Origin: Ignatzschineria larvae DSM 13226
Lineage (GTDB): Bacteria; Pseudomonadota; Gammaproteobacteria; Cardiobacteriales; Wohlfahrtiimonadaceae
DNA: 64,000 bases
Reading direction: 5' to 3'
Assembly (NCBI RefSeq): GCF_038500265.1
Contig: NZ_CP150637.1
Span: 1,587,001 to 1,651,000, forward strand
Shown one piece after another: positions 23,067 to 25,826 of the stretch (within the stretch, counting starts at the first letter, position 1; every line of letters starts with the position of its first letter). A program made the position numbers and the translations under genes. The notes beneath the pieces were generated by a model. That model saw only the letters and a list, made by a program, of their open reading frames with translations. It was not told the DNA's origin and searched no databases.

Positions 23067-23771
23067 ATGAGTAACGCATTATCAACCCAAGTGAAGTCTT
23101 TAGCTAAAACATTGTCACTTGGCGGCAATGAGCAAGAGTTAATTGCAACACTTAAAGCAACGGCTTTTCGCGGTCAGCAAATCAATGACAGTCAAATGAC
23201 TGCTCTTCTTATCGTAGCAAATGAGCACAAACTCAATCCTTGGACTAATGAGATTTACGCTTTCCCACAAAACGGCGGGATTCAGCCGATCATTGGTATT
23301 GACGGCTGGTTAAAGTTGGCGAACAACAACAAGGAATTTGATGGACTTGAATACGATTACAAATTCAATGAAGCCGGAGAACTGCTTGCAATTACTTGTC
23401 GAGTGTACCGCAAAGATCGTAGCAGACCTATGGAAGCCACCGAGCTAATGGTTGAAAACAGACGTAATACAACGCCTTGGAAGCAATATCCAAGTCGTAT
23501 GTTAAAACATAGAGCGACAGCGCAAGCGATACGTTCAGCGTTTGGTTTGTCGGGAATTATGTTGGATGACGAAGCGCAAGCAATGAATGACAGTCAAGTA
23601 AATGCGCCCGAAGTCGATGAAGCGGTAAGAATTGAACTAGTCAAAAGAGCTGAAGAAGAAGCCAAGAAAGGCGTAGAAGCACTGCTTCACGAGTGTATGA
23701 CGTATGCGCTCGTGGCAAAAATGGACAGCCTTACTCTAAGTATCACGACTACAAAATGGAACTTGCTTTAG
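23067..23771 (+). CDS. bet: Bet/RecT-type annealing protein with altered C-terminus
   Basis: The first ~205 residues are a Bet-family single-strand annealing protein (AFRGQQINDSQMTALLIVAN, LNPWTNEIYAFP, PIIGIDGWLKLAN, MLKHRATAQAIRSAFGLSG). The last ~26 residues (HECMTYALVAKMDSL...) are read out of frame from the exonuclease gene, whose family homology begins at about 23678. The junction looks like a deletion that removed the end of bet and the start of exo. The conserved annealing core is complete, so it may still work. Confidence 0.8.
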   Translation: MSNALSTQVKSLAKTLSLGGNEQELIATLKATAFRGQQINDSQMTALLIVANEHKLNPWTNEIYAFPQNGGIQPIIGIDGWLKLANNNKEFDGLEYDYKFNEAGELLAITCRVYRKDRSRPMEATELMVENRRNTTPWKQYPSRMLKHRATAQAIRSAFGLSGIMLDDEAQAMNDSQVNAPEVDEAVRIELVKRAEEEAKKGVEALLHECMTYALVAKMDSLTLSITTTKWNLL

Positions 23772-24265
23772 AGCGCTTAACTGGTAAGCCAACAGAATCA
23801 TTCACAAGTAACGCAATGCAATGGGGAATTGATACAGAACCTAAAGCCAAAGAAGCCTACACACTGCAAACGATGAATGAGGTTCAAGATGTCGGATTTA
23901 TCGATCATCCTGAAATTGAGAATTTTGGCGCAAGTCCAGATGGACTGCTTCTTGATATGTTCGGCAAGCCTTTAAATAAAGCAATTGAAATCAAATGCCC
24001 TACCTCTAAGACTCATTTAGAAACACTCACAAGCGGTAAAGTCAATCCGCAGTACATTTATCAAATGGCTTCTCAACTGATGTGTTTAGGTATGAAAGAG
24101 TGCGTCTTTATGAGCTTTGATCCCCGCTTCCCTGCTGATCTTCAAATGTTCTTGTATGACTTTGAATTAACAACAGAAATGGAAGAAGAGATCACAGAGA
24201 AAGTGGTCAAATTCAATAAAGAAGTCGACCAAGTGATTAAGGACTTGGAAAAGAAGGTAGCTTGA
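23693..24265 (+). pseudogene. YqaJ/lambda Exo-type exonuclease, 5'-truncated
   Basis: Catalytic region intact: SPDGLLLD and IEIKCPTSK supply the Asp and Glu-x-Lys of lambda Exo (D119, E129, K131), with QYIYQMASQLMCLG following. The frame is open from just after a TGA near 23650; codons for STASRVYDV at 23678-23704 correspond to ITASEVHNV of lambda Exo. About 33 N-terminal residues, including the EWHKLRLG part that guides the 5' end, are missing and no good start exists; GTG 23693 is the first candidate. It might be made as a -1 frameshift fusion to Bet, or be dead. Confidence 0.65.
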
Positions 24266-24911: not shown

Positions 24912-25348
24912 ATGTCAAAAGGAATTAATAAGGTTATTTTAATTGGGCGCTTAGGAAGTGATCCGGATATACGTTACACACAAAATGGTAAGGCTGTTAC
25001 AACAATTTCGATTGCAACATCTGAACGTTGGAAAACAAAACCGGGGAACAGCAAGAGCGCACTGAATGGCATAAAACCATATTTTTCGGAAAATTAGCAG
25101 AGATTGCCGGGCAATACCTGAAAAAAGGCTCCCAAGTATATATTGAAGGCTCACTTCACACGAGCAAATATACAGATAAACAGGGTATTGATCGTTATTC
25201 AACAGATATCATTGCAACTGAAATGCAGATGTTAAGCGGAAATGAACGAATAAACAATCAAACACCGGCACAACCAAGCTCAGTGACACAGCAAAATCGG
25301 CAAGTAGATAGCTCGCAGTTTGATGTGTCTGATGATATTCCGTTTTAG
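24912..25348 (+). pseudogene. ssb: Single-stranded DNA-binding protein gene, frameshifted
   Basis: The first part encodes a normal SSB start ([20 protein letters not shown], then [15 protein letters not shown]). After TGG AAA at 25029-25034 the reading frame is lost and ends at 25097. The rest of SSB ([20 protein letters not shown], then [12 protein letters not shown], ending in the acidic DDIPF tip) continues in the -1 frame to 25348. One missing A in the A-run at 25032-25040 explains it. This is either a real mutation or a homopolymer sequencing error; a programmed shift is less likely because the site is not a good slippery sequence. Confidence 0.85.
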
Positions 25349-25358
25349 AGGAGGTTTT

Positions 25359-25673
25359 ATGAGCGGATTAAATGCTATACAAGATTTAATTAAATCAGAA
25401 CAACAAAAGGAGCAGGCAAACAATGAAAGTATGGAGAAGATACTAAGCACATTGTCAGCAATATCTATCGAGATAAAGAAGATAAAGCAACCTGATGAAC
25501 TGCTAGAAATAAAAGACGTGTGTGAGATTATTAAATTTAAACACGACTGGGTTTATAGAAACATTAGATTAGGATTATTCCCTGCCCCCATAAAAATCAA
25601 CACTGCATCTCGATGGTATCGATCAGAAATTGATCAATGGCTAGAGTCACAAAAATCTTACAGGGTAAATTAG
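25359..25673 (+). CDS. AlpA/excisionase-like DNA-binding protein
   Basis: ATG at 25359 has a strong GAGGAGG five bases upstream; a longer frame from 25320 overlaps ssb and is unlikely. Of 104 residues, the first half is a coiled coil (KSEQQKEQANNESMEKI) and the second is a MerR-like winged helix (LEIKDVCEIIKFKHDWVYRN, RWYRSEIDQWLES), as in AlpA/Xis regulators. It lies beside the proposed attachment site, so it could control excision. Confidence 0.75.
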   Translation: MSGLNAIQDLIKSEQQKEQANNESMEKILSTLSAISIEIKKIKQPDELLEIKDVCEIIKFKHDWVYRNIRLGLFPAPIKINTASRWYRSEIDQWLESQKSYRVN

Positions 25674-25698
25674 AGGGTAAAAAAAAATTCTAGTTAAC

Positions 25699-25725: not shown

Positions 25726-25735
25726 GTGTTTCGTA

Positions 25736-25826
25736 TGGCGGAAAAGGAGGGATTCGAACCCTCGATACGCTATTAACGTATACACCCTTAGCAGGGGTGC
25801 GCCTTCAGCCACTCGGCCACTTTTCC
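25736..25826 (-). tRNA. tRNA-Ser(GCU)
   Basis: The minus strand folds as a 91-base class II tRNA with acceptor GGAAAAG/CTTTTCC, encoded CCA, a long variable arm and anticodon loop CTGCTAA (anticodon GCU). Its 3' end faces the prophage, the orientation expected if the integrase uses the tRNA 3' half as the attachment site. The matching att copy would lie left of the window. Confidence 0.93.

Follow-up and report, generated by a model that had tools for sequence, protein, structure and literature searches.

The locus lies within the window, the whole analysed stretch of 64,000 nucleotides, and carries on the forward strand the remains of a bet gene followed by those of an exo gene. The bet open reading frame occupies positions 23067-23771 (234 codons), and its first 206 codons (23067-23684) encode a RecT/Red-beta-type annealing domain, assigned using the Pfam RecT profile (PF03837, residues 23-177, E = 2.5e-25), phrog_252 (E = 1.7e-64) and the Bet protein of a genome of the same genus, here called G003 (162 of 206 residues identical). 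The last 28 codons and the stop codon (23685-23771) constitute a foreign tail in which exo sequence is read out of frame. The exonuclease frame lies at -1 with respect to bet. A stop at 23651 bounds it on the upstream side, and it is open over 23654-24262 and matches Pfam YqaJ (E = 1.6e-24), both frames being open across the 118 bases from 23654 to 23771. The remaining exo sequence, as defined by this profile and by alignment with G003 Exo, runs from the equivalent of Thr20 in the 211-residue G003 protein to the stop codon (23681-24265) and is free of internal stops but has no start codon of its own. The longest exo frame with a start codon begins at a GTG (23693-24265, 190 residues) and matches YqaJ from profile position 22.

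Downstream, an ssb gene is split between two reading frames (24912-25348, as 24912-25097 and 25028-25348), whose products match positions 1-46 and 38-104 of the Pfam SSB profile; G003 has one ssb open reading frame of 157 residues, and the split is either a true mutation or a read error. An excisionase/AlpA-like regulator (25320-25673; phrog_66, E = 1.9e-8) is the final prophage gene before a tRNA-Ser (25736-25826), and the prophage seems to end nearby. Two exact direct repeats were observed, one of 16 bases linking the tRNA-Ser end (25734-25749) to L026:7936-7951, a locus of the same genome outside the window, and one of 19 bases linking 25662-25680 to L026:8070-8088; these repeats flank the prophage and are probably attachment-site sequences, which suggests that its left end lies about 18 kb left of the window. 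An integrase gene is found there, within L026:8123-9862, with arm-binding and central domains; no match to the catalytic domain was obtained, the gene being cut short after the central domain. The shortened gene is adjoined by a transposase pair on the opposite strand, presumably belonging to an IS3-like element, and inspection by eye beyond this pair revealed no remainder of the integrase. Tail sheath, major head and portal proteins gave long profile matches, indicating that the prophage is not wholly ruined, and the picture as a whole fits a prophage in decay.

Relatives of the two proteins were sought in 188 whole genomes, including that of the organism itself, at a threshold of E ≤ 1e-10, yielding four matches for Bet and four for Exo, of which the only close ones were those in G003; the Bet matches L004 and L005 stand outside the comparison. 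Among the eight other genomes of the genus, G003 alone matched both proteins, and its pair (G003:C1:2656762-2658133) is intact, with Bet (243 residues) and Exo (211 residues) encoded by separate genes in different frames, exo starting 10 bases past the bet stop and being preceded by AGGAGG. Comparison with the closest intact pair had been proposed in the preliminary description and, carried out codon by codon, showed two separate full-length genes in G003 with 185 net bases more than the window, which lacks the last 37 codons and the stop of bet along with the ribosome-binding site, start and first 19 codons of exo. The window is colinear with G003 bet through codon 206 (ending at 23684); beyond it the bet frame has no codon-level match to G003 bet and holds exo sequence in the -1 frame. 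Similarity to exo (146 identical residues, 46 different and 2 gap positions) is clear from 23681, or from 23675 when weaker matches are counted, and the junction (23675-23685) thus has an overlap of about 4 bases that is clear, or of up to 10 with the weaker matches. With 185 bases absent relative to G003 and homology preserved on either side, the junction is more than a chance arrangement, and the size of the loss (2 modulo 3) accounts for the -1 frame of exo. The original placement of the end of Bet homology near residue 205, and of the start of Exo homology near 23678 without a start codon, agrees with codon 206 and position 23681 in this comparison, and the -1 offset was borne out by the overlapping open frames. 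The estimate of about 33 missing Exo residues is correct in lambda numbering, in which 32 residues precede Thr33, and does not hold against G003, relative to which 19 residues are missing from the DNA and 23 from the GTG-initiated frame.

The missing pieces were searched for using G003 Bet residues 200-243 and Exo residues 1-26 as queries, and nothing convincing was found in 90 kb, comprising the window and the 26 kb to its left (best E = 0.14 and 1.4, respectively, versus 9e-27 and 4e-16 in G003). The N-terminus of lambda Exo, employed as a third query, had no power, giving E = 0.081 even against the intact G003 gene. At E ≤ 1e-10 the organism's own genome contains one Bet match and one Exo match, and hence no second copy of either family at this threshold. 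No second lineage with the junction was found among the 188 genomes or in scans of IMG/VR, the latter reaching close relatives only; the scans with Bet and with Exo each confirmed one contig, the same in both cases (L011), which is identical to the window over 5,020 bases including the junction and ssb and, as its source may be the same strain or assembly, was not counted as independent. With regard to how the bases were lost, GAAGCACTG occurs once in the window (and at least once in 37 of 100 shuffles) and no such repeat is present at the two corresponding sites of G003; given this, deletion by slippage between short direct repeats is considered possible and is put no higher.

The part of exo that is gone includes the equivalents of lambda Exo Trp24 and Arg28, which form part of the 5'-phosphate pocket. 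The available portion of a review (PMC7496540) has both residues touching the 5' phosphate and groups their mutants with those whose activity is lost or hardly measurable, and a milder account of R28A, as impairing end recognition and processivity, appears in the accessible part of another article (PMC3118119). Exo had matches in 220 phage and 24 plasmid records. Twelve relatives were aligned, ten of them from phage records, one from a plasmid record and the twelfth from G003, leaving out a Klebsiella record, the genome loci L008, L009 and L010 and the remaining phage and plasmid records. The W-x3-R motif of the Exo N-terminus, formed in lambda by Trp24 and Arg28, is present in all twelve and absent from the window's reading frame, while the catalytic core motifs SPDG and [ILV]E[ILV]KCP are kept. 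The only in-frame ATG, GTG or TTG codons between 23654 and 23800 are the GTG at 23693, which comes first, and an ATG at 23756, and no Shine-Dalgarno-like run was apparent by eye in the 20 bases before either of them. Exo would be translated poorly if at all, from the GTG, into a product devoid of the 5'-phosphate pocket and probably inactive. A naturally short exonuclease was also considered and rejected, as none of the twelve aligned relatives starts where the window's GTG frame does.

The locus is very probably a deletion scar that inactivated the Red operon of a decaying prophage, reflecting ordinary gene decay and not the birth of a new fused enzyme. On this reading, it is what survives of a Red-type operon, in which relatives carry bet and exo as separate genes in that order, after one deletion of about 185 bases removed the 3' end of bet together with the ribosome-binding site, start and first 19 codons of exo. 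The bet frame would then yield the annealing domain followed by 28 foreign residues, a protein that might still bind or anneal single strands but would not support recombination, and Red-type recombination is most likely disabled. The earlier proposal of a deletion scar with a broken Red system is well supported by the intact G003 pair and by two other damaged prophage genes, ssb and the integrase gene, this support resting on one close intact relative and on a junction represented by no independent copy. Against decay, neither remaining frame has closed and both are well conserved, which is what retention of their products would look like; a recent deletion would give the same picture.

A second explanation is that the truncated Bet still has a use purely in annealing, in which case losing Exo and the Bet tail would be tolerated or even favoured. 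The RecT core (residues 23-177) is indeed kept, and C-terminally shortened lambda Red-beta is described in the consulted portion of one study as still annealing (PMC5052646). However, the absent C-terminal region, corresponding to those last 37 codons of G003 Bet, is needed for recombination in lambda Red-beta, and in the same portion of that study truncations of this kind block recombination, which was lost in constructs 1-217 and 1-185, with about a quarter retained by construct 1-237 in one assay (PMC5052646). As the same prophage has also suffered damage to ssb and the integrase, and the junction recurs in no second lineage within the searches given above, this explanation is regarded as very unlikely. 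An assembly or sequencing artefact is very unlikely: the window rests on a single assembly, with which the L011 contig may share its strain or assembly, and a minor read error might on its own account for the ssb split, but a 185-base loss at a junction where the clear overlap amounts to about 4 bases is atypical of read error or repeat collapse, and the read error raised in the preliminary description is an unlikely cause of it. It is likewise highly improbable that a minimal annealing-only protein, composed of the Bet core and the new 28-residue tail and perhaps accompanied by a trace of Bet-Exo fusion made by rare slippage, serves the prophage or its host.

Lastly, a -1 ribosomal slip within 23654-23771 had been proposed to yield a fused annealing-nuclease protein. 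The exo frame is -1 relative to bet with both frames open over this stretch, and half-matches to a slippery heptamer occur at 23717 and 23753 (containing AAA) and at 23714 and 23750. However, a frame-0 scan of 23640-23768 found no X XXY YYZ heptamer in the bet frame, and any slip product would still be without the exo phosphate-pocket residues and the rest of the N-terminus, since that DNA is gone. In seven phage records bet and exo overlap as distinct genes and every exo has a start of its own; in G003, too, the two are separate. The annotated overlaps of 4 to 47 bases show that an overlap is ordinary, the abnormality here being the missing exo start and N-terminus. A narrow literature search for fused or frameshifted bet-exo pairs, including the accessible part of PMC3945230, found no description of such a natural fusion. 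The fusion is regarded as extremely improbable and was rejected on account of the absent slippery site and the failure to find the deleted segments in the 90 kb.

Taken as a deletion scar, the locus matters little and illustrates a single step in how a prophage's recombination operon decays. It serves as a warning that, where neighbouring genes overlap at -1, the overlap may be the scar of a deletion and not a recoding site, and, if the truncated annealase were active, it would offer a natural test of the role of the Red-beta tail.

Among known systems, the lambda Red operon (NC_001416) has the same families in the same order; the annealing domain of the window Bet aligns with that of lambda (7ujl, E = 2.7e-43), and Exo retains the catalytic motifs that lie further along. 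Unlike the window, which is without the Trp24/Arg28 equivalents and the Bet tail, lambda has complete genes (261 and 226 residues) with a 4-base overlap. The best match of Exo to a solved structure is the exonuclease in PDB 3syy (E = 7.7e-40, open-frame residues 8-202); it begins at chain residue 15, so that the N-terminus before this residue has no counterpart in the window. The closest system is G003, with 78% identity in Bet (residues 1-207) and 75% in Exo, in which sequence comparison shows the same order of bet, exo and, later, ssb and an AlpA-like gene, but in which, in contrast to the window, bet and exo are complete and separate and ssb is undivided.
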